A DNA stretch of 64,000 bases, taken from assembly GCA_911810475.1 (NCBI GenBank), contig OU461276.1:2034001-2098000 (forward strand), read 5' to 3'. Each line of letters opens with the position of its first letter. The stretch's first letter is position 1. Below the pieces are notes generated by a model. That model was given only the letters and a program-made list of their open reading frames with translations, did not search any database and was not told the DNA's origin. Source of the DNA: Candidatus Celerinatantimonas neptuna. GTDB taxonomy: Bacteria > Pseudomonadota > Gammaproteobacteria > Enterobacterales > Celerinatantimonadaceae. The position numbers and the translations under genes were made by a program. Shown piece by piece: positions 4,728 to 35,658 of this stretch.

Positions 4728-5297
4728 TGGCCAGTTTTTTAGCGTTTTAACCTTTGGTCCGGAAAAGGGATCATTCAGAAACTCTTTCAGGTTTTAGCAC
4801 AGGACAATGACTCCGAATGGTTGTTCATTGATGGCAGTATTGTTAAGGCCTATCAGGATAGCTGTGGCGCAGCGAGTACTAATGCAGAAGCGATCGGAAA
4901 AAGTCGGGGTGGGAACTCAACTAAAATTCACCTTGCCGTTGATAGTGGTGGCTTGCCCGTTTATTTCGAACTATCAGGAGGTCAGGTCAATGATATTGTT
5001 CATGCTCAGAGCCTGATATCTGGCTCTCCGGATGCAGCCAGTGTTTGTGCAGATAAAGGTTATGATAGTGATAATCTGAGAGATTTTATCGAAGAAAATG
5101 GCAGTAGAGCGAATAGACCACGCAGAGCCAATACGAAAGCAGGGAATGAGCATATGGACTGGTGTTTGTACAAATATCGCCACCTGGTCGAAAACGCTTT
5201 TTTGAGAATTAAGAAATACCGGGCGGTTGCAACCCGATACGACAAATTAGCAAGAAATTACAGAAGTATGGTGGCTCTGTCTTTTGTCATGATGTAG
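4728..5297 (+). mobile_element. 5'-truncated IS5-type transposase remnant
   Basis: The intact stretch from 4743 reads RFNLWSGKGIIQKLF, then FIDGSIVKAYQDSCGA (the DG of the first catalytic DDE aspartate block), then KIHLAVDSGGLPVYF, VCADKGYDSD (second Asp block) and a C-terminal HLVENAFLRIKKYRAVATRYDK carrying the Glu. This is the order of IS5-family transposases. An in-frame TAG at 4740-4742 interrupts the reading frame, and nothing recognisable as the N-terminal helix-turn-helix lies upstream. It begins about 65 nt after the prlC terminator. I could not identify terminal inverted repeats. It is a dead fragment, not an active element. Confidence 0.85.
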
Positions 5298-25652: not shown

Positions 25653-27095
25653 ATGATCGATATGCGAATCAACATGATCAGCATGACGTTGATGACGATA
25701 TTATTAGCCGGTTGTGCTGTTGGCCCTGATTATCATCGTCCGTCGGTGCCTGTGACAGCTCATTATAAGGGAACGAAAGGCTGGCAGCAGGCGAAACCAA
25801 TGGATCAAGTGAACAAAGGCCCATGGTGGCAGATTTATAAAGATCCTGTGTTGTCATTATTGTTGGAAAAAGTGTCGATCAATAACCAAAATGTGGCCCA
25901 ATATGCAGCTCAGTACCGTAAGGCTCGGGCTTTAGCTAAAGAGGCCGGGGCGAATCTGTATCCAACGATTGATTTGTCAGCCAGTGGAACACGATCGTTA
26001 AGTTCGCAGACGACAGAAAATCAATACACTACATCGGCCAGTGCAAGCTGGGAGCTTGACCTGTGGGGTAAGCTACGGCGGACCAGACAAGAAGAGAGAG
26101 CCAGTGCTCAGGCAAGTGCTGCAGAACTTGCTAATGCTCTTTTGAGTGCTCAGTCTGAACTTGCTCAGGATTATTTTCAGTTGCGCGTGACTGATGCCAA
26201 GATTCGGCTATATAAGAAAAATATTGATGTTTACCGGCATTATCTGGCGGTTGTTGAAAATCAGTATAAAGCGGGTAAAGGGACGTCTGCTGATGTTGCA
26301 CAGGCCCGGACTCAGCTTCATTCCACCACAGCATCGATGTTGGATCTGGTTTGGCAACGAGCGCAATATGAACATGCGATTGCAGTGTTAATGGGGCGTA
26401 GCCCCAGTAATTTTTCATTACCTGTAAAATCATTGAATTTTTATCTTCCGAAAATCCCGGTCGGTATTCCTAGTGAGTTGTTACAGCGACGTCCGGATAT
26501 TGCGTATGCAGAGCGGAATATGGCATCGGCTAATGCGGCTGTAGGTGTTGCGATCGCCGGTTATTATCCTGATGTGACACTGTCTGCCAGTGGTGGGTTT
26601 CAAAATTCGTCCTGGGCTGATCTGTTTACGCTACCGTCGAAAATGTGGTCGATAGGCCCGAGTATTAGTGAGACGCTACTGGATTTTGGAGCGACTAAAG
26701 CGAAAGTTGCCAGTGCCAGAGCTAATTATGATGCAAAAGTCGCCGCATATCGGCAAAGCGTGTTATCGGCTTTTGAAGAAGTAGAAAATAATATGGTTGA
26801 GTTATCTGTTCTAAAGCAGGAGTATTTTGCGCGTGATCAGGCAGCGAAGGCGGCGGAAGAGTCTGCTCGAGTGACTTATAATCAGTACAAATCAGGTATG
26901 ATTAGTTATCTGGATGTGGCCACAACAGAATCGACCAGTTTAAGTCAGCAGCAAAGCTTATTAAGTCTGGTGGAAACTCGTTTAGTGACCAGTGTTAAAT
27001 TAGTGGCTGCACTTGGCGGTGGCTGGCAATCAAGCCTGCTCCCTGGTGAGAAAGCATTACCTATTTCACTTAAACCGGTTAAATCCCGGCAATAG
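25653..27095 (+). CDS. Outer-membrane efflux lipoprotein (NodT/OprM family)
   Basis: TolC-like outer-membrane channel, 480 residues. A lipoprotein signal ends in LLAGC with the lipidated cysteine at residue 21; several in-frame ATGs at the 5' end leave the exact start open. After it comes the family opening AVGPDYHRPSVPVTAHYKG. Two repeats of the outer-membrane efflux domain follow, with the typical ASWELDLWGKLRRTRQEERA and RRPDIAYAERNMASANAAVGVAIAGYYPDVTLSASGG. It starts 5 nt after the second pump gene and completes a self-contained tripartite efflux operon. Its 3' end overlaps the convergent SDR gene by 17 nt. Confidence 0.93.
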   Translation: MIDMRINMISMTLMTILLAGCAVGPDYHRPSVPVTAHYKGTKGWQQAKPMDQVNKGPWWQIYKDPVLSLLLEKVSINNQNVAQYAAQYRKARALAKEAGANLYPTIDLSASGTRSLSSQTTENQYTTSASASWELDLWGKLRRTRQEERASAQASAAELANALLSAQSELAQDYFQLRVTDAKIRLYKKNIDVYRHYLAVVENQYKAGKGTSADVAQARTQLHSTTASMLDLVWQRAQYEHAIAVLMGRSPSNFSLPVKSLNFYLPKIPVGIPSELLQRRPDIAYAERNMASANAAVGVAIAGYYPDVTLSASGGFQNSSWADLFTLPSKMWSIGPSISETLLDFGATKAKVASARANYDAKVAAYRQSVLSAFEEVENNMVELSVLKQEYFARDQAAKAAEESARVTYNQYKSGMISYLDVATTESTSLSQQQSLLSLVETRLVTSVKLVAALGGGWQSSLLPGEKALPISLKPVKSRQ

Positions 27096-27864
27096 AACCG
27101 CCATCACACCGTATTTGGCTGCCTGTGATATAGCTTGCTTGTGAGCTTACGAAAAATGCCGCCGTGGCGGCAAATTCTTCAACACTGCCATAACGTTGTA
27201 CCGGAATTTGCCGTGCAGCTTGTTCTCTGATTTGCTCTATCGGACAACGATTATTTTCGGCGGCTATTTTATCGAGTTGATCAACCCGGTGGGTGTGGAT
27301 TCGTCCTGGGAGGAGCATATTACAGGTGACACCATCAGCTGCAACTTCATTAGCGAGAGTTTTAGACCAGCCGACCAAAGTGGAGCGAAGTGCATTGGAT
27401 AGCCCCAGATTTGCGATCGGTTGTTCAATGCTTGATGATGCAATCGTTAGTATTCGTCCCCATTGCTGTTTTCTCATATCATTGATGAATGTATTGGTGA
27501 TAGAGACGATCCTCAGTACCATCATTTCAAAATAGCTTTGCCAGTCGTTTTGGCTGAACTCAGTAATAGCTCCAGGACGTGGGCCACCTGAGTTATTGAC
27601 TAAAATGTCTATCGAACCGAAGTGATGACTCACTTTTTCTTTTAATATATCGACGCTGTTTGCATTGCTAAGATCCAGTGGGCAGGCAATTACTTCAGAT
27701 GATGTTTGCGTTTTCAGTTGTTGTGCGGTCTGGGCCAGTTCAGGTGAGCGGCCTGTGATGATAACTTGGCAGCCTTCCATTGCGAGTTGTTTGGCGATAC
27801 CTAAGCCTAATCCCCGGGAAGAGGCTAAAACTAATGCACGTTTTCCATGTAGTCCAAGGTCCAT
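27079..27864 (-). CDS. SDR-family oxidoreductase with atypical active site
   Basis: A 261-residue Rossmann-fold protein related to 3-oxoacyl-ACP reductases. The cofactor loop reads ASSRGLGLG, and NNSGG replaces the usual NNAG. After the catalytic serine region (IASSSIEQPIANLGLSNALRSTLVGWSKTLANE) there is no YxxxK: the expected Tyr and Lys positions are Ser or Leu and Arg. The C-terminal QRYGSVEEFAATAAFFVSSQASYITGSQIRCDGG is normal. A branch of SDR proteins with this QP...SNALR pattern exists, so it may be a real subfamily rather than a broken enzyme. Substrate unknown. Confidence 0.8.
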   Translation of the reverse strand: MDLGLHGKRALVLASSRGLGLGIAKQLAMEGCQVIITGRSPELAQTAQQLKTQTSSEVIACPLDLSNANSVDILKEKVSHHFGSIDILVNNSGGPRPGAITEFSQNDWQSYFEMMVLRIVSITNTFINDMRKQQWGRILTIASSSIEQPIANLGLSNALRSTLVGWSKTLANEVAADGVTCNMLLPGRIHTHRVDQLDKIAAENNRCPIEQIREQAARQIPVQRYGSVEEFAATAAFFVSSQASYITGSQIRCDGGSIAGI

Positions 27865-27940: not shown

Positions 27941-28453
27941 TTAGTGTTTGCTGCATGTGTGTATCATCTGTTTTAACCAACGGCCTGGGGTTATGTGAAA
28001 TCGATAGCGACGATGTTGAAATCTGAGCCATGCCAAGATACTGAGCAAAGCCCATAATGTAATGGAAAGCAATGCAGCTCTTAGCCCACTGGTTACATCG
28101 AGTAGATGGCTAAAATAGAAGTAACTACCAAGATAGAGTGCTATTGCAGTTAAAGACGAGAGTGTAAAGAATTGCCTGAAAAGAACATCGTGATTGCGAA
28201 CGACGGTTCCATTTGAAAAACGGACACTTTGTACAGACCGTTTAAAAAACAATCCCCCTTGATAAATGGCTATCTCAAGTTCTTGCTGACTCTGTAGCGC
28301 ATCATAGATAGTGGTATCCATCTGAAGTGGCCCATCAATGATTCGTCCGTCACTTAATTCGATTGAGCTGCAACGAATAATCTGGGCTTTTGCTTTGGGG
28401 TGAATGGTTAAATTATTTTGACCTAACGTTTTAATCTGGCCTTTAATCAGCAT
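27941..28453 (-). CDS. Unrecognised two-helix membrane protein
   Basis: 170 residues. The N-terminal half (about 95 residues) is soluble, with beta-strand-like segments (GQIKTLGQNNLTIHPKAK, ELEIAIYQGGLFFKRSVQSVRFSNGTVV). Two hydrophobic helices follow at about 97-117 and 123-141, then a basic tail RFQHRRYRFHITPGRWLKQM. I do not recognise the family. It has a start ATG at 28453 with a GGAGATG-like ribosome site upstream on the minus strand. It lies at the border between the efflux region and the mobile island. A real gene is likely from length and composition; function is unknown. Confidence 0.6.
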   Translation of the reverse strand: MLIKGQIKTLGQNNLTIHPKAKAQIIRCSSIELSDGRIIDGPLQMDTTIYDALQSQQELEIAIYQGGLFFKRSVQSVRFSNGTVVRNHDVLFRQFFTLSSLTAIALYLGSYFYFSHLLDVTSGLRAALLSITLWALLSILAWLRFQHRRYRFHITPGRWLKQMIHTCSKH

Positions 28454-28675
28454 GCTTTTCCATCTCCGGTTACCACCGCCTTTGACTGGATGACATACTG
28501 CAAAGTAAACAATTCAATGTTTATAAAACGAAAAATTACGATAGTATTCATCCACTGTGTGATTTTTCAGTCCAGTTTTCAGGCTTACCCGGTTATTTTA
28601 TCGCCAATTCATCAAAAATTCATCTTTTTAGAACTTCTTTACTTAAAAACCCCCAAGTTTTGTGACACAAGAATC

Positions 28676-29358
28676 CAGAGTATCCGCATGAGTGTGCATT
28701 ATTTGACCGTTGATGTAAATCCAGCCAGCAATACTCGCTCCAAAAATTCTGGGTTTATCGTGTAGAGTTTCTGTTTCATTGGCGCGTAGATCTGGGGTGA
28801 TTCCGCTTGCAACATATTCAAGGTCATGTGTTTCAGACAGGTAAGGTTTTCCGCCACATTTTCTCGGTATATTTGACATGCATCTCCTGCAAACTGATAT
28901 CCAAAATCCAGTGCATAGACTTTATGCCTGCGTTCACGGATCTCTTGACTGGCCTGCTCGGGCATTAACGCCTTAGAGCTGATGTAGTCACTATATTCAA
29001 GTTCTGGCTCTTTTCCTTTGACTGCTCGGAAATTTTTCACCGTAACGGGGCTCTTTAGCTCTTTCCTGGCTTGACCATCCAGCTTTCCGGCATTGAGGAC
29101 AGCAGATGCGTGATTCGACCCGCCCATGGTGCTTATCAACCTGCCAGAGGGACTGTCGATACTGCGCAAAGGTCTGCTCGTACGGCTTTGTGCAAGTCTG
29201 TCCTGATTGCCTTTCACTGCTAACAGGTCATCGCTCCTTGGGTGATGATGGTTTTGGCTATTTTGGTCTGACTCGCGAACCCGTGAGCCTCGGAGATCGA
29301 GCATTTTGCTGAGCGCTGGAATAGCGGTGCTCTCATTGCTCTTACTGTCCGTTTTCAA
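28676..29358 (-). mobile_element. Decayed ISAs1-family transposase (3' part)
   Basis: The minus strand from 29358 reads KTDSKSNESTAIPALSKMLDLRG, then a frame-shifted stretch, then DDLLAVKGNQDRLAQ, later NAGKLDGQARKE, VKGKEPELEYSDYISSKALMPEQ, and DACQIYRENVAENLTCLKHMTLNML. This is the order of the H-repeat/ISAs1 transposase C-terminal two-thirds. Another frame in the shifted stretch restores QTKIAKTIITQGA, so compensating indels are present. The N-terminal part is missing, so the element is dead. CAGAGTATCCGCATGAG at 28676-28692 is a possible terminal repeat of the element, judged from memory of the family. Confidence 0.8.
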
Positions 29359-29606
29359 TGATATGTCCTTTTCTGGTCTTTTCTTGTCCTTTTTTGGTGT
29401 TGTTATCTAATCGTTGTATTGAGATAATTTAATCGTTGTTTAGTGAAATTAATGATTAGTTAATGACTTTTTTATTATGAGGAACAATAAAATTAATCTT
29501 ATTTAAAGAAGGTTTTTAGAAGACGTTTCTTATTAAAATGATGCCATCATTATGGTGATGAAGTGTATTATATACAGAATACAACAATTCTAAGTAATGA
29601 GTAGTC

Positions 29607-30533
29607 ATGAATAGAAACGTTTATTTTTTGGTATTACCGAATATTCTCGTTTTAGATATGGTTGGGCCAGCGGAAACCTTTAAGCTTGCAAGTGAGGCGT
29701 TTCGGTTAACTTATATTGCTCCTGAAGAAAATATCACGATGCCTTTAGGGTTGAAGGTAACTGATTTGAAGCCATTTCCTAAAAGTTTGCCTAAAAATAG
29801 CTTACTTGTTATTCCTGGTGTTTATGATTCATCTATAGATTTTAGGAATGATTTGGCAAATATTGCTCGAAATTGGATTGCTAGTTTAAAGGAATCTGTA
29901 GAACGGGGGGATATTAGTATTTTATGTATCTGTTCAGGAGCTGTACTTGCTGCTGAAGCTGGACTTTTAAATGATAGGCGATGTACAACCCATCATTCCA
30001 TTATTGGGCGGTTAAAACAAATTGCTCCAAAAGCTAAAGTTATTGATAATTTGTTATTTGTCGAAGATTGCGGTGTATATACTTGTGCGGGAATTATGTC
30101 TGGAATTGATTTGGCTTTAGAGTTAGTTCGAAAATTTATAGGTGTGGAAGATTGTATTCGTGTTGCTAGAGAAATGGTGGTATATCTTCCCAGAAGCGGT
30201 AGTGATAGTCAAAATTCTCCCTGGCTTAAATATAGATATCATCATCATCCTATTATTCATCGAGCTCAAGATCTGATTGTATCTAATCCCCGGGAATATT
30301 GGACATTAGAGAAAGTATCATCAGAGGTTCATGTAAGTTCAAGGCATTTATCTCGAATATTTAAACAGTATTTGAATATTAGTGTTAAAGATTATCATGA
30401 ACATATAAAGCTAATATTAGTTTCACAGTACATGGAGCAAGGGAAAAATCTAGAACTTGCAACATCTTTATCTGGATTTTCATCAAGTAGGCAATATAGA
30501 AGAGCTAAGTTAAGATCTAAAGTCGTAAAATAG
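29607..30533 (+). CDS. GlxA-type AraC-family regulator (DJ-1/PfpI domain plus HTH)
   Basis: A 308-residue transcription factor. Residues about 1-190 form a DJ-1/PfpI-like domain (LVLPNILVLDMVGPAETFKLA ... LLVIPGV) with Cys109 in the nucleophile-elbow position, CICSGAVLAAEAGLL. Residues about 210-305 form the AraC double helix-turn-helix (WTLEKVSSEVHVSSRHLSRIFKQY ... LELATSLSGFSSSRQYRRA). Such proteins often control nitrogen or small-molecule catabolism genes. It precedes, in the same direction, the ATP-grasp and isochorismatase-fold genes, and is A+T-rich like them, so it is probably their regulator and was acquired with them. Confidence 0.85.
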   Translation: MNRNVYFLVLPNILVLDMVGPAETFKLASEAFRLTYIAPEENITMPLGLKVTDLKPFPKSLPKNSLLVIPGVYDSSIDFRNDLANIARNWIASLKESVERGDISILCICSGAVLAAEAGLLNDRRCTTHHSIIGRLKQIAPKAKVIDNLLFVEDCGVYTCAGIMSGIDLALELVRKFIGVEDCIRVAREMVVYLPRSGSDSQNSPWLKYRYHHHPIIHRAQDLIVSNPREYWTLEKVSSEVHVSSRHLSRIFKQYLNISVKDYHEHIKLILVSQYMEQGKNLELATSLSGFSSSRQYRRAKLRSKVVK

Positions 30534-30565
30534 TATATTATAATCTTTATAGAAATGAGAATTAT

Positions 30566-31832
30566 ATGAACAGGATTAATAAATATATCAGGCCATGCAT
30601 TATTCTAGTTGATCCCTGTTCAACAAGTTCTGTTCTTGCAAAAGAGTTTGATAAAAGGGGATATGACTGTATATCATTAATATCTAGGATTAAAATCCCT
30701 GAAGTATTTGCATCATCTTATCAACCAGATGATTTTTTATTTGAGATAAGATATAAAAATAATATTGAAGAAGTGTTAAGTACACTTAGCGATGTTCCAA
30801 TAACAGTTGTTATTTCATGTTTGGAGACTAGTGTTTTTCTAGCAGATACGATTGCTGAGCGATTAGGCTTGCCAGGAAATAATCCTAAAACAAGTCGCCT
30901 TCGCCGGGATAAGTATCAAATGATTGAAGCTGTTCGTCGTAGAGGGTTGAAAGCTGCGTGGCAAAAGGTTTTTAGTGTAACTCAAGATGCTGTTAGTTGG
31001 ATTAATCAAAAAGAGTTTCCTGTTGTAATTAAACCATTACGTTCAGCGGGTACGGATAGTGTGTTTATATGTAATTCTATTGTTCAGGTTGAAGAAGCAT
31101 GCAATACAATGATTAAATCACAGAAATAAATTAGAAGAAGCTAATAATGAAGTGCTGGTTCAGGAATTTTTAACCGGTGACGAATATGTTGTTGATACAG
31201 TGACCTTGAATGGGAAAACCGTTACTTGTAATGTATTTTCTTATGAGAAAGAGCGGGCAAACGGTGCTGATTTTGTTTATCGAGCTATACGAGCTATTGA
31301 TTTATCTTCTCCTATTTCCCAAAAATTGATTGCATATAATAATGAGGTCATTAAAGCCGTTGGTATTTTCCAAGGAGCTGGGCATAGAGAGATAATGCTC
31401 ACTGATAATGAACCCTGTTTAGTTGAGATAGGTGCCCGGCTACATGGAGGGAATATTCCGAGTATTGTTCAAAAATGTGCTCCCTGGTCTCAAATAGAAT
31501 TGTTAATCGATGCATGTATTGATCAGAGATTATTTGAACAGAAATCAAAGCAACAGCTTCATTTAGATAAAAAATTTTTAATCCATTTTTATATATCATC
31601 TAAAGAAGGGATGATTGAAATAATTAAAAATAATCATTTAATTACATCATTAGATTCATATTTTGATTCGATCTGGTATCGGGGAACTGGAGACTATTTA
31701 GATAAGACTATCGATTTATATACATGTCCTTTAAAAATAATCTTAGCAAATCGGAATAAAGAATTACTTCTCAGGGAAAGAAATAGTTTGATTGATATTG
31801 AAAAGAAATCACTTCTTTTCCGATTGAGATAA
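30566..31832 (+). pseudogene. Frameshifted ATP-grasp ligase (amino-acid-ligase-like)
   Basis: Two reading frames together form one ATP-grasp protein of about 415-420 residues. Codons 30566-31129 encode the N-terminal preATP-grasp domain and the start of the ATP-binding fold (FPVVIKPLRSAGTDSVFICNS), ending IKSQK and a stop. Shifting by one base at CAGAAATAAA (31121-31130), as if one A were extra, continues as NKLEEANNEVLVQEFLTGDEYVVDTVTLNGK and on to CLVEIGARLHGG, the metal-binding end of the fold. EYVVDTV and the EIGAR..GG end resemble L-amino acid ligases and related peptide-forming enzymes. Either a recent mutation or a sequencing error; substrate unknown. Confidence 0.8.
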
Positions 31833-31876
31833 TGATGGATGACTTTTATTTTTCTGAGTAATTTATATTGAGATAA

Positions 31877-32470
31877 GTGAAAAGGAGATATTATGGGAAA
31901 GTAGCTGTTTTAACCAATAATCTTCAATATACACGTATCCAAGAGAACATCGTATCTTTTAACATAATTGAAAAATTTAAAGAGGACTTTCCTTTATTTT
32001 TACAACAAATGAGAGAGATGGGGCATGCTATTATTCATTTAAAATATATTGACTATCCTCTTTGCACCAGGTTTATTAAAGACCGACCATTACCCGTGTC
32101 GAGCAAAGCTGTGGATCCTGAGCTCATTCGTGAATTTGTTTGTGGGTCTGATATCGTTGTTTGTAGGAGTAAAGAGAGTGGTTTTTATCAGACATTACTT
32201 GATCCTATTTTGAAATTGTTGCTAGTTGATACAATAGTTGTCGCTGGATTTCAAATGCAAAGCTGTATTCAGGCTACTGCGGCCGATGCATATTTTCATG
32301 GATATAATGTATGGATTGCTCGAGATGGAATGTATTCCCTTTATCCGGAAAATAAAAAGCGTACACTCACTTTATTGTCGAGATATTGTGCGACGGTTTT
32401 AGATCTTCAAACCATTATTGATTACTTAAAAAGTAATTCTTGTTTGCCTGCTAAGATAAGAAATGGTTGA
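31877..32470 (+). CDS. Isochorismatase-fold hydrolase with altered active site and start
   Basis: A 197-residue isochorismatase-like cysteine hydrolase. The family triad is Asp-Lys-Cys: Lys99 (RSKESGFYQT) and Cys130 (QMQSCIQATAADA) are present, but the expected Asp in the first strand (usually TND) is Asn15 (VLTNNLQY). The reading frame opens at GTG 31877. A better start, AAGGAG (31881-31886) followed by ATG 31893, is out of frame by one base and hits TAG after three codons; one extra A in GGAAAG would give MGKVAVLTNN. So a one-base deletion near the 5' end is likely, with possible rescue from the GTG. Role in the island unknown. Confidence 0.7.
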   Translation: MKRRYYGKVAVLTNNLQYTRIQENIVSFNIIEKFKEDFPLFLQQMREMGHAIIHLKYIDYPLCTRFIKDRPLPVSSKAVDPELIREFVCGSDIVVCRSKESGFYQTLLDPILKLLLVDTIVVAGFQMQSCIQATAADAYFHGYNVWIARDGMYSLYPENKKRTLTLLSRYCATVLDLQTIIDYLKSNSCLPAKIRNG

Positions 32471-32625
32471 GGAACGTTTTTAGGACCTTGCCATCATTGT
32501 GTTTTTGAGTTCCTATGATTGGGCTGTGAACAAGCGGTATTTATATTCCATTTGGTGTTATGATGTGCGTTCAGCTTACCTTTTTCGCTTAAGATAACTA
32601 TTGTTCGACCTTCTATTAATAATCT

Positions 32626-34938
32626 ATGAGAATACAAAAAAGATTACGAGTAAACGGCATTGTTCAGGGGGTTGGTTTCAGGCCTTTTGTTCATCGGATT
32701 GCGGTTGCTAATCACCTGACGGGATGGGTGAATAATGATTCTCATGGTGTTTTGATTGAGGTTCAGGGTGAGTTAGACGATTTTCATCAATTTAAATCTC
32801 AACTTGTTCATGATATCCCGGCTATGGCGATGATTTCGCAAGTTGAAGAAATACAAGGTCATTCAGAGATATCCTTTTCTGAGTTTAAGATTATTGCGAG
32901 CGAAAAAAATGCAGATACATTGACGCTTATCCCCCCCGATGCGTATGTCTGCGATGATTGTTTGCGTGAATTATTTGATCCGACTGATCGGCGATATCAC
33001 TATCCGTTTATCAACTGTACGAATTGCGGGCCTCGTTTTTCGATCATTAAGGATATGCCCTATGACCGGGTGCAAACGACCATGTCGGAATTTTCAATGT
33101 GTTCAAGCTGCGCTAATGAGTATAGCGATCCTTCTGATCGGCGTTTTCATGCTCAACCCAATGCTTGTGATGCGTGTGGCCCAAAGGTGTGGCTCTGCGA
33201 TGAAGCCGGACAGAAGCTTAATGATGAGCCAATCGCACAGTGTTGCCATCTATTACGAGCCGGGGCGATTGTTGCGGTGAAGTCAGTCGGAGGTTTTCAC
33301 TTGTGTGTTAATGCGTCAGACAGCCAGGCTGTGAACCGGTTACGACAGCGTAAACAGCGGGGAAATAAACCTTTTGCTCTGATGGTGCGAAATATCGATG
33401 TGGCCCGGCAATACTGCGAGATCAGTATAGACGAAGAGCGGTTATTAACATCGTCTAAAGCCCCCATCGTGGTGTTGAAGAAAAAATCGGATTGTGCGTT
33501 ATCTGATGCGATTGCCCCTTTAAACCCTTCTTTAGGGATCATGCTAGCTTCTTCCCCTGTGCATCATCTTCTGCTGGATGATGGGCTGCTTCATACGCTT
33601 GTCATGACGAGTGCAAATCGCCGGGGGCAACCGATTGTTTATGAGAATCAACGGGCGATAGACGAGTTACAAGATATTGCGGATGCTTATTTGTTACATA
33701 ATCGGGATATTCATACCCGGGTTGATGATTCCGTGATTAAACTGACTGAGTTAGAGGGGCTGTCAGCGCCGGTTCTGTCATTTATACGGCGTTCGAGAGG
33801 TTATGCGCCAGCGCCTGTCATGTTTCAACAGGCGCTGGCGCCGGTAATTGCAGCCGGTAGTGAGCTCAAAAATACACTGGCTTTGTCAAAGGGACATCAT
33901 GTGTATCTGAGCCAGCATATTGGTGATCTGAAAAATGACCAGGTTTTTGATGCTCATCAAGAGTGTGCAAAAAAACTGTCTTCATTGCTGGATATACAGC
34001 CAAGTGCTTGGGCGGTTGATTTACATCCACAATTCAGGTCGACTCAATTTGTTGAGGAGCGCTCAAAATTACCCATCTACAAAGTGCAGCATCATCATGC
34101 ACATATGGCGTCATGTATGGCCGAAAACCAGCTCAGTGGCCCGACTATTGGTATTGTTTTTGATGGAACCGGTTATGGTTCGGATGGCACAATTTGGGGT
34201 GGGGAATTTTTGTTGGGAGATTATGTGCATGCTGAACGTGTCGGTACGATTAAACCGTTTCAATTAATTGGTGGTGATAAGGCCGTTGAAGAGCCGTACC
34301 GGGTCGCTGTGAGCTTGCTGATGGAAACCTATGGTGATTCGTTTTTGAAACTAAAACTTCCTTTGTTTGATGAATTGTCTGGCCAGAATATTCATGTGTT
34401 GCAGCGTATGGCAAAACGTTATCTAAATAGTTTTAGCACAACCAGTATGGGGCGTCTGTTTGATGGGATATCGGCACTGCTTGGGATTCGTTCCAGAATT
34501 GAATATGACGCGCAGGCGGCCATTGAGCTAGAGGGATTGCTTGGACGAGATCAAACGATGGTGCCATGTTATGACTACCAGATTAACCAGCAAGGCAGTT
34601 TGTTTGTTTTTGATTATCACCCGATGGTAAGACAGATTGTCTGTGATATTGAGCAAGAGCGACGGACTGTTCCAGATATTTCCCGAAGGTTTCATAGTAC
34701 GTTAGTTACGGCCAGTTGTGCGATGAGCAGTATGATTTCAAAATATTATGGCGTTTCCCAGGTGGTGCTATCGGGGGGAGTTTTTATGAATGAATTCATG
34801 CTTTCGAATCTCTATAGGCAATTACGTTTGGATGGTTTTGATGTATATGTCCATCAGCAGGTTCCTGCCAATGATGGAGGAATATCACTTGGGCAGATTT
34901 GTATAGCGAACGCACAACTTGCGCTAACATCTCAATAA
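32626..34938 (+). CDS. hypF: Carbamoyltransferase HypF, [NiFe]-hydrogenase maturation
   Basis: Makes the thiocarbamate that becomes the CN ligands of the [NiFe] site, using carbamoyl phosphate and ATP and passing it to HypE. It has 770 residues in four parts: an acylphosphatase domain (NGIVQGVGFRPFVHR at the start), two zinc-finger motifs (CDDC-x18-CTNC and CSSC-x18-CDAC), a YrdC-like domain (VAVKSVGGFHLCVNAS) and a Kae1-like domain with the metal motif VQHHHAHMASCMAE. The downstream GIVFDGTGYGSDGTIWGGEF is typical. No other hyp or hydrogenase gene is in the window. It reads toward lexA. Confidence 0.95.
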   Translation: MRIQKRLRVNGIVQGVGFRPFVHRIAVANHLTGWVNNDSHGVLIEVQGELDDFHQFKSQLVHDIPAMAMISQVEEIQGHSEISFSEFKIIASEKNADTLTLIPPDAYVCDDCLRELFDPTDRRYHYPFINCTNCGPRFSIIKDMPYDRVQTTMSEFSMCSSCANEYSDPSDRRFHAQPNACDACGPKVWLCDEAGQKLNDEPIAQCCHLLRAGAIVAVKSVGGFHLCVNASDSQAVNRLRQRKQRGNKPFALMVRNIDVARQYCEISIDEERLLTSSKAPIVVLKKKSDCALSDAIAPLNPSLGIMLASSPVHHLLLDDGLLHTLVMTSANRRGQPIVYENQRAIDELQDIADAYLLHNRDIHTRVDDSVIKLTELEGLSAPVLSFIRRSRGYAPAPVMFQQALAPVIAAGSELKNTLALSKGHHVYLSQHIGDLKNDQVFDAHQECAKKLSSLLDIQPSAWAVDLHPQFRSTQFVEERSKLPIYKVQHHHAHMASCMAENQLSGPTIGIVFDGTGYGSDGTIWGGEFLLGDYVHAERVGTIKPFQLIGGDKAVEEPYRVAVSLLMETYGDSFLKLKLPLFDELSGQNIHVLQRMAKRYLNSFSTTSMGRLFDGISALLGIRSRIEYDAQAAIELEGLLGRDQTMVPCYDYQINQQGSLFVFDYHPMVRQIVCDIEQERRTVPDISRRFHSTLVTASCAMSSMISKYYGVSQVVLSGGVFMNEFMLSNLYRQLRLDGFDVYVHQQVPANDGGISLGQICIANAQLALTSQ

Positions 34939-34968
34939 ATCAGAGAAAAAGTTGCTCTTCCCCAACTA

Positions 34969-34984
34969 CTGTATATACTAACAG
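34969..34984 (+). promoter_or_regulatory. LexA (SOS) box 1
   Basis: CTGTATATACTAACAG fits the CTGT-N8-ACAG SOS consensus exactly. It ends 27 nt before the lexA start codon, where it would cover the lexA promoter. Confidence 0.9.
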
Positions 34985-34987
34985 ATG

Positions 34988-35003
34988 CTGTATAAAAACA
35001 CAG
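34988..35003 (+). promoter_or_regulatory. LexA (SOS) box 2
   Basis: CTGTATAAAAACACAG is a second exact CTGT-N8-ACAG site, 3 nt after box 1 and 7 nt before the lexA ATG. Two closely spaced boxes match the E. coli lexA arrangement and imply tight autorepression. Confidence 0.88.
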
Positions 35004-35010
35004 GTCTGTT

Positions 35011-35658
35011 ATGAAAGCACTTACAAAACGCCAAACACAAGTCTTAGAACTGGTTAAATCGCATATTCAGGCAACGGGTATGCCTCCAACGCGTGTGGAG
35101 ATTGCCAAAGAGTTGGGATTTCGTTCTGCTAATGCAGCGGAGGAACATCTTAAAGCTCTTAATCGTAAAGGGATGATTGAGATGATCCCTGGGGCATCTC
35201 GTGGGATCAGGTTGGTTGCTCATTCAGATGAAGCGTCTGTTTCTGAAAATGTCCCGATTCCTGAAGATCAAGGGCTTCCCCTGATTGGTCAGGTTGCTGC
35301 CGGGGCTCCTATCTTGGCACAGCAACATATTGAGTCTCATTATTCGGTTGATCCCGCTTTGTTTCATCCTCACGCAGATTTTCTGTTACGGGTTCATGGT
35401 GAAAGTATGAAAGAGATTGGGATTATGGATGGCGATTTATTGGCCGTACATAAAACCCAGGATGTCCATAACGGTCAGGTTGTTGTGGCCCGGGTTGGCG
35501 ATGATGTGACAGTAAAACGATTAGAAATGCAGCATGATAAAGTTCTACTCCATCCTGAGAATACTGATTTTACTCCGATTGAGGTTGATTTAACATGTGA
35601 GGAACTCACGATTGAAGGGTTAGCCGTTGGTATTATCCGAAACTCAGATTGGTTATAA
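35011..35658 (+). CDS. lexA: SOS repressor LexA
   Basis: Represses DNA-damage genes and self-cleaves when RecA is active. The product is 215 residues, slightly longer than E. coli LexA (202). The winged helix covers residues about 1-65 ([32 protein letters not shown]). The cleavage bond is Ala97-Gly98 in QVAAGAP, and the Ser-Lys dyad is Ser132 (HGESMK) and Lys169 (VKRLE); all are offset by 13 from E. coli, keeping the spacing. Two SOS boxes precede it. dinF follows 71 nt later, the classical lexA-dinF pair. Confidence 0.97.

Follow-up and report, generated by a model that had tools for sequence, protein, structure and literature searches.

A horizontally acquired, partly decayed Iso-HypE-HypF cassette with a GlxA-type regulator and an ATP-grasp ligase in Candidatus Celerinatantimonas neptuna

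We examined a 64,000-nucleotide stretch of the Candidatus Celerinatantimonas neptuna genome (contig OU461276.1, positions 2,034,001 to 2,098,000; hereafter the window), in which a block of foreign DNA lies upstream of lexA. On the plus strand the block carries genes for a GlxA-type regulator, an ATP-grasp amino-acid ligase, an isochorismatase-fold protein (Iso) and HypF. HypE and HypF are known as the makers of the cyanide ligands of hydrogenases. Sequence comparison shows that the four genes were acquired horizontally and represent a partly decayed version of a widespread Iso-HypE-HypF module, to which the GlxA regulator and an L-amino-acid ligase of the ATP-grasp type are joined here.

Results

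Genes and boundaries of the inserted block

The regulator open reading frame (ORF; 29607-30533, plus strand) is intact and exceeds the Pfam cut-offs for DJ-1/PfpI (42.3 bits) and the AraC helix-turn-helix (HTH_AraC, 35.4 bits). The ligase gene is broken into two plus-strand ORFs in different frames: an N-terminal piece (30566-31129), 49% identical to residues 12-193 of the ligase from an intact operon of Photobacterium marinum (locus L059, described below), and a C-terminal piece (31152-31832), 61% identical to residues 184-419 of the same protein. The Iso gene (31877-32470, plus strand) exceeds the isochorismatase Pfam cut-off with 72.4 bits. Its start is disturbed: the ATG after the best Shine-Dalgarno-like stretch is, as assigned by eye, out of frame with the conserved start of the family, while a GTG at 31877 is in frame with it and remains a possible start. 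A preliminary description of this DNA, made from the letters alone, had named a GlxA/AraC regulator and an isochorismatase-fold gene and had reported frame problems in two genes, and on all of these points the present searches agree with it.

At the position of HypE in the intact operon there is only a gap (32471-32625, plus strand), in which tblastn detected no HypE remnant. An intact hypF follows (32626-34938, plus strand), identified by its TIGR00143 score (788 bits, cut-off 466), its HypF domain set and its place in a tree within an Iso-linked clade. The GC content of the regulator, ligase and Iso genes is 0.33-0.35, against 0.43-0.47 in the native lexA, dinF and OEP genes, which bears out the earlier remark that three genes are set apart by composition. 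The cassette does not end at 32470 as then supposed, however, for hypF (GC 0.452) lies inside the same block. Composition misled the earlier boundary; HypF is richer in GC in Photobacterium as well (0.42, against 0.36-0.39 in its GlxA, ATP-grasp and Iso genes).

The ends of the block were placed by alignment to a congener (G001), in which the site is empty: OEP and a small ORF are followed by lexA and dinF, and the spacer that separates the small ORF from lexA measures 199 bp. Window positions 28590-28627 and about 34946-35084 align to this spacer, the left match being 38 bp at only 84%, and the foreign block thus spans approximately 28628-34945. Since it ends a few bases past the hypF stop at 34938, hypF belongs to the block. 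The flanking genes are common to both genomes (OEP 67%, small ORF 27941-28453 44%, lexA 78% and dinF 69% identity); the small ORF has a weak match to GlpM, under the Pfam cut-off. Inside the left end lies an ISAs1-family transposase remnant (28699-29358, minus strand), for which a Pfam search gave no match. It scores 58.1 bits with NF033564, below the cut-off of 70, and is 68% identical in DNA, over 42% of the stretch, to the annotated ISAs1 transposase of a Vibrio plasmid; the dead ISAs1 element noted earlier beside the cassette is supported by these matches. A promoter and terminator scan gave 14 and 3 sites, compared with 20.9 and 3.7 in shuffled sequence, and is therefore uninformative.

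Iso is a regular neighbor of HypE and HypF

Five of the ten best plasmid matches to Iso were opened, and hypE and hypF accompanied Iso in all five. These five, picked for organism diversity and with neighbors already known, served as seed alignment for a profile scan of genome contigs, which yielded 75 loci chosen by Iso sequence alone. HypE and HypF both lie near Iso in 67 of them (Actinomycetota 49, Pseudomonadota 11, Myxococcota 4, Bacillota 1, Chloroflexota 1, unplaced 1). Three loci have HypF only, namely L107 and L131, on short contigs, and L099, whose HypF is truncated where the retrieved sequence ends; the sole Bacteroidota locus has HypF alone. One Raoultella locus (L116) retains only a HypE fragment, and four have neither gene (L104 from Ruminococcus, L114 from Gilliamella, L132 from Erwinia and the weak match L133). 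The Iso-linked HypE ends in LPRLC in 70 of 73 cases, the exceptions (L075, L112, L116) being broken or fragmentary, and HypE and HypF of the Streptomyces locus L036 pass TIGR02124 and TIGR00143.

The partners of a hydrogenase-maturation cluster were hardly detected in these loci. Eight plasmid loci, five of them with Iso, were added to the 75; in the resulting 83 locus stretches, phmmer searches with HypB, HypC and HypD of this genome found none of the three, and [NiFe]-hydrogenase subunits occurred in two, both from Paraburkholderia. The window likewise gave no match to HypB, HypC or HypD at E 0.01 and does not qualify as a hydrogenase-maturation cluster. The neighbors of Iso in the 75 loci include nonribosomal peptide synthetase (NRPS)-family genes (13 loci), a diaminobutyrate-type transaminase (15), EamA (10), LysR (13), a gene resembling the large subunit of carbamoyl phosphate synthetase (CPSase; 5) and ATP-grasp genes above 30 bits (15). 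These counts are approximate, as they rest on our own simple gene calls, and each family is labeled from one or a few members by Pfam or NCBIfam, or from plasmid annotation (NRPS from L036; LysR and HAD from L034).

Two subsets of loci have further genes in common. The CPSase-large-like gene (family F32, of which only the L101 copy was checked with Pfam) occurs in the actinomycete Iso-HypEF loci L078, L084, L101 and L110, where it would perhaps provide a local supply of carbamoyl phosphate. Among the six enterobacterial-type loci (L034 from a Salmonella plasmid, L109, L114, L116, L118, L122), a LysR-grouped gene is present in all and a HAD-grouped gene in five; this set includes the Gilliamella locus without HypE and HypF and the Raoultella locus with its HypE fragment.

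The HypF of the window belongs to the Iso-linked clade

A HypF tree was built by a quick method from 102 rows, comprising 71 HypFs from Iso loci, 30 others, all of the window's class, and the window protein; L107 and L075 were left out of an original 104 as partial or split. The 71 Iso-linked HypFs and the window HypF fall on one side of a branch with a Shimodaira-Hasegawa-like approximate likelihood ratio (SH-aLRT) of 100, the window HypF being sister to Photobacterium (100) and then to Psychromonas (96). As a modest control, Iso was found near none of the other HypFs in 29 loci, with flanks of about 1.5 kb where the contig allowed, and HypE was found in four of them. Identity of the window HypF is 61% with its counterpart in the Photobacterium operon and 35% with that of the congener.

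A protein search found this HypF as the single match in the genome, and a TIGR00143 family search returned four matches, among which, of the matches listed, only that of the window is over the cut-off. The only HypE over its cut-off in the genome, C1:1686261, is of native type, being 68% identical to that of the congener and at most 45% to the 71 Iso-linked HypEs. Neighboring ORFs were recognized on inspection as HypD, HypC, HypB and FhlA, and a hydrogenase-4-like set lies some 1 kb further on. The window therefore has Iso and an adjacent HypF of the Iso-linked clade, and since the adjacent HypE is missing it is classed as a decayed derivative of the module.

Intact and partial relatives of the operon

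In P. marinum, GlxA, ATP-grasp, Iso, HypE, HypF, a class-III aminotransferase and an EamA transporter follow one another on one strand, all intact. Identities to the window are 57% for GlxA, 55% for the ligase, 48% for Iso and, as given above, 61% for HypF. The aminotransferase scores 516 bits with TIGR00709, the diaminobutyrate transaminase family (cut-off 401.6), which was exceeded by all four transaminases tested (L035, L059, L060, L072). In Erwinia endophytica (L132) a 4.5-kb contig bears a GlxA 51% identical to that of the window, an ATP-grasp gene, Iso in broken form and one further ORF, which groups with EamA of Photobacterium. The three genes that had been singled out at first do cluster in other taxa, intact in P. 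marinum and in part in E. endophytica, but the trio is rare. A GlxA scoring above 200 bits occurs in only 2 of the 75 Iso loci, and the regulator is a peripheral part of the module.

Searches of the window with L059 proteins (tblastn) for remnants of HypE, the transaminase and EamA gave nothing convincing, at best E 0.24; the best HypE match (E 0.98) is located elsewhere than the 32471-32625 gap. Megablast against complete Escherichia coli genomes gave no match to the window stretch or to the Iso-HypEF stretch of Escherichia sp. E1V33.

Iso is a distinct family with an isochorismatase-like fold

By alignment the window Iso belongs to a family marked by the motifs TNDLQ, KDSGF and C-QTTAADA. 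Its predicted structure (mean predicted local distance difference test score 80) has an isochorismatase-like fold, with Z 21.8 and a root-mean-square deviation of 2.5 over 173 residues aligned to 3hb7, and lies near RutB and the triuret and biuret hydrolases (Z about 18-19). In NCBIfam, Iso comes closest to biuret amidohydrolase, RutB and the PRK11440 hydrolase, with scores far below cut-off for all three. Iso thus shares its fold (Z 18-22) with isochorismatase-like hydrolases such as biuret hydrolase, RutB and carbamoylsarcosine amidohydrolase, but is a sequence family of its own that resides near HypE and HypF. As a modest control, no hypE or hypF is annotated within 10 kb in two loci of the carbamoylsarcosine type, which are themselves nearly identical.

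We take three alignment positions to be the Asp/Lys/Cys catalytic triad of isochorismatase-like proteins. Those residues are present in 71 of 80 aligned Iso rows, and the Cys in all 80; the Erwinia Iso was left out of the count as under the 70-bit limit and the weak match L133 was included, and L104 was dropped from this alignment (A2) on account of stop codons. In the window the positions read N15, R97 and C130, so that Asp and Lys are changed (D15N, K97R) and Cys is kept. Seven Nocardia Iso proteins (L102, L105, L117, L120, L123, L124, L126) have a paired change of Asp to Gly and Lys to Arg, again with the Cys kept, and HypE and HypF are present beside them; loss of Asp and Lys need not, therefore, mean that function is lost. 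The Nocardia set offers a natural experiment on the need for hydrolysis; the indispensable residue of Iso may be the Cys.

Among 394 genomes of the order, Iso was found in three, this one and two taken as Psychromonas and Gilliamella records. An IMG/VR scan gave 48 pattern stretches, none confirmed, and phage records gave eight weak matches, the best among the matches listed having 31% identity over 81% of Iso.

The ATP-grasp ligase

The best Protein Data Bank match of the window ligase is an L-amino acid ligase (E 2e-46), and the amino-acid-ligase features read from the sequence earlier are borne out by it. The C-terminal piece alone, a partial protein, scores 172.7 bits with PRK07206 (cut-off 302), and the Photobacterium ligase exceeds that cut-off with 354 bits. 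The dapdiamide A synthase DdaF is also an ATP-grasp enzyme, but with its family model (NF041595, cut-off 840) the window C-terminal piece and the Photobacterium relative score only 100.5 and 218 bits; in the one dapdiamide locus examined there is a diaminopropionate gene, and neither hypE nor hypF is annotated within 8 kb. In a ligase tree the window, Photobacterium and Erwinia proteins form a clade of their own (100/100). The Streptomyces ligases in the tree sit on other branches, which suggests that ligases were recruited to the module repeatedly. A Streptomyces clavuligerus plasmid (L037) has two divergent groups, HypF-HypE-DUF3865 and Iso-arginase-ATP-grasp-MFS, and its ligase belongs to a different branch.

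Discussion

Carbamoyl phosphate is known to be activated by HypF, which turns the Cys at the C-terminus of HypE into a thio- or isothiocyanate (PMC4506123; PMC6022934). The Photobacterium HypE and the window HypF are near whole-length matches to the solved structures of HypE (3vti) and HypF (3vth), HypE to its last residue. From this known chemistry and the neighbors of Iso we infer the following route for an intact operon. HypF would use carbamoyl phosphate to carbamoylate HypE at its C-terminal Cys, and dehydration by HypE would then give a protein-bound (iso)thiocyanate. Iso is proposed as the acceptor because no HypC or HypD was found nearby; its conserved Cys would take over the one-carbon, one-nitrogen unit and pass it to an amino acid, perhaps often 2,4-diaminobutyrate, which a ligase or an NRPS would build in. 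For an operon of the Photobacterium type this amino acid would probably be L-2,4-diaminobutyrate from the adjacent transaminase, converted to an N-cyano, cyclic-guanidine, nitrile or ureido derivative. Its ATP-grasp ligase would then make a dipeptide-like product, which EamA would export under GlxA control. We consider it fairly probable that the window holds a decayed Iso-HypE-HypF cassette with GlxA and ligase, whose intact counterparts pass a HypEF-derived cyano unit through Iso to an amino acid, the pathway in this genome being dead and HypF kept. The preliminary description had proposed a small unit for an amino-acid-derived molecule; this is supported in part, but the continuation into hypF, the absence of hypE and the usual neighborhood of Iso had been missed. 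That Iso normally neighbors HypE and HypF alters the likely chemistry.

Several observations weigh against this interpretation. The uptake of a cyano group by Iso is a putative step, and the named families nearest to Iso, biuret hydrolase and RutB, act on carbamoyl and amide groups. The Gilliamella and Ruminococcus loci have Iso without HypE or HypF in the fetched stretch, and the HypB, HypC and HypD scan spanned the locus stretches only. With the transaminase grouped in only 15 of 75 loci, a diaminobutyrate substrate is not universal. GlxA with this ATP-grasp is rare: among 296 genomes from the family of the Photobacterium locus, three have an ATP-grasp match at E 1e-80, namely Photobacterium and two others with 38% identity, and among 198 from the family of the Erwinia locus only the Erwinia does. 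The window Iso, finally, lacks two of the three Asp-Lys-Cys residues of a competent hydrolase.

If carbamoyl rather than cyano were transferred, HypF and HypE would be an S-carbamoyl donor, and Iso, in the manner of the carbamoylsarcosine, biuret and triuret hydrolases, would move or trim the carbamoyl group to give a ureido amino acid such as N-carbamoyl-diaminobutyrate. The nearness of Iso in fold and in its sub-threshold NCBIfam matches to biuret hydrolase and RutB speaks for this, as does the N-carbamoylation of diaminobutyrate in padanamide biosynthesis, described in PMC6022934. The padanamide reaction, as reported there, uses a one-enzyme transferase resembling ornithine carbamoyltransferase, however, which would make a HypE partner superfluous, whereas the Photobacterium HypE matches the solved protein to its last residue and the terminal Cys is nearly invariant; we regard carbamoyl transfer as rather unlikely. 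Still more improbable, in our view, is an accessory unit for hydrogenase maturation or cyanide housekeeping, with Iso as a repair hydrolase for mis-loaded HypE. The TIGR02124 and TIGR00143 scores in Streptomyces, that of HypF in the window and the two Paraburkholderia loci adjoining [NiFe]-hydrogenase genes fit such a role, but HypB, HypC and HypD were detected in none of the 83 loci, hydrogenase genes only in those two, and NRPS-family and ATP-grasp genes recur instead. In PMC8305402, moreover, a second hypF tag stands among the hydrogenase genes of Paraburkholderia phymatum.

Compared with [NiFe]-hydrogenase maturation, then, the module is alike in the HypF domain set, in the PR(L/I)C ending of HypE and in the structural matches, and differs in that its HypF is on a branch apart from the 30 other HypFs, HypB, HypC and HypD were not detected near it, and it has an Iso partner with ligase, NRPS, transaminase and exporter neighbors. 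Circumstantial support for the proposed mechanism comes from P. phymatum: in a table that covers nifA-dependent genes of nodules, those for a cysteine hydrolase, hypE, hypF, ectB and GNAT have strongly negative values, and the accompanying text reports ectB down and 2,4-diaminobutanoate lower (PMC8305402). The cysteine hydrolase is equated with Iso from its position before hypE and from plasmid match H25 (39%). As many other genes fall in the same table, these data show co-regulation only.

The cassette pathway is very probably dead in this genome, because HypE is absent, the ligase is frameshifted, the Iso start is out of frame and two triad residues are changed. Its HypF has probably been retained for a present role in hydrogenase maturation: the genome has a hydrogenase-4-like locus, and no second HypF was found in it. 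That it is instead the native hydrogenase HypF, placed behind Iso by chance, would agree with its genome-like GC of 0.452 and its being the only HypF found; this is already contradicted by its location inside the insert, its grouping with the Iso-linked HypFs and its far greater identity to the Photobacterium protein than to that of the congener, and we give it almost no credence.

If the proposed route is right, a dedicated HypEF clade combined with Iso and a ligase, NRPS or transaminase would be an untapped means of bringing cyano or carbamoyl groups into small molecules. A broader possibility, which we offer only tentatively, is that HypE and HypF split off into an ancient biosynthetic route in which a cyano group passes via an Iso-type Cys protein into nitrile, cyanamide and cyclic-guanidine units in many natural-product clusters, and that such a HypF here took over hydrogenase maturation. 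No description of an Iso-HypEF module appeared in titles and abstracts among the matches listed, with subscription literature mostly uncovered. A 2026 preprint on nitrile peptides presents aldoxime, oxidative and ATP-dependent routes, the words hydrogenase and carbamoyl being absent from its main text (PMC13060819). The Iso-HypE-HypF signature would make such clusters easy to mine. Matches to hypE and hypF do not prove a hydrogenase, and the window is a case in which a cluster HypF seems to serve one.

Two minor features lie outside the block. An ORF at 4821-5297 (plus strand) resembles, by eye, an IS5-type transposase fragment. A short-chain dehydrogenase/reductase gene (27079-27864, minus strand), between OEP and the small ORF, is not present there in the congener (L135) and is possibly a second insertion.

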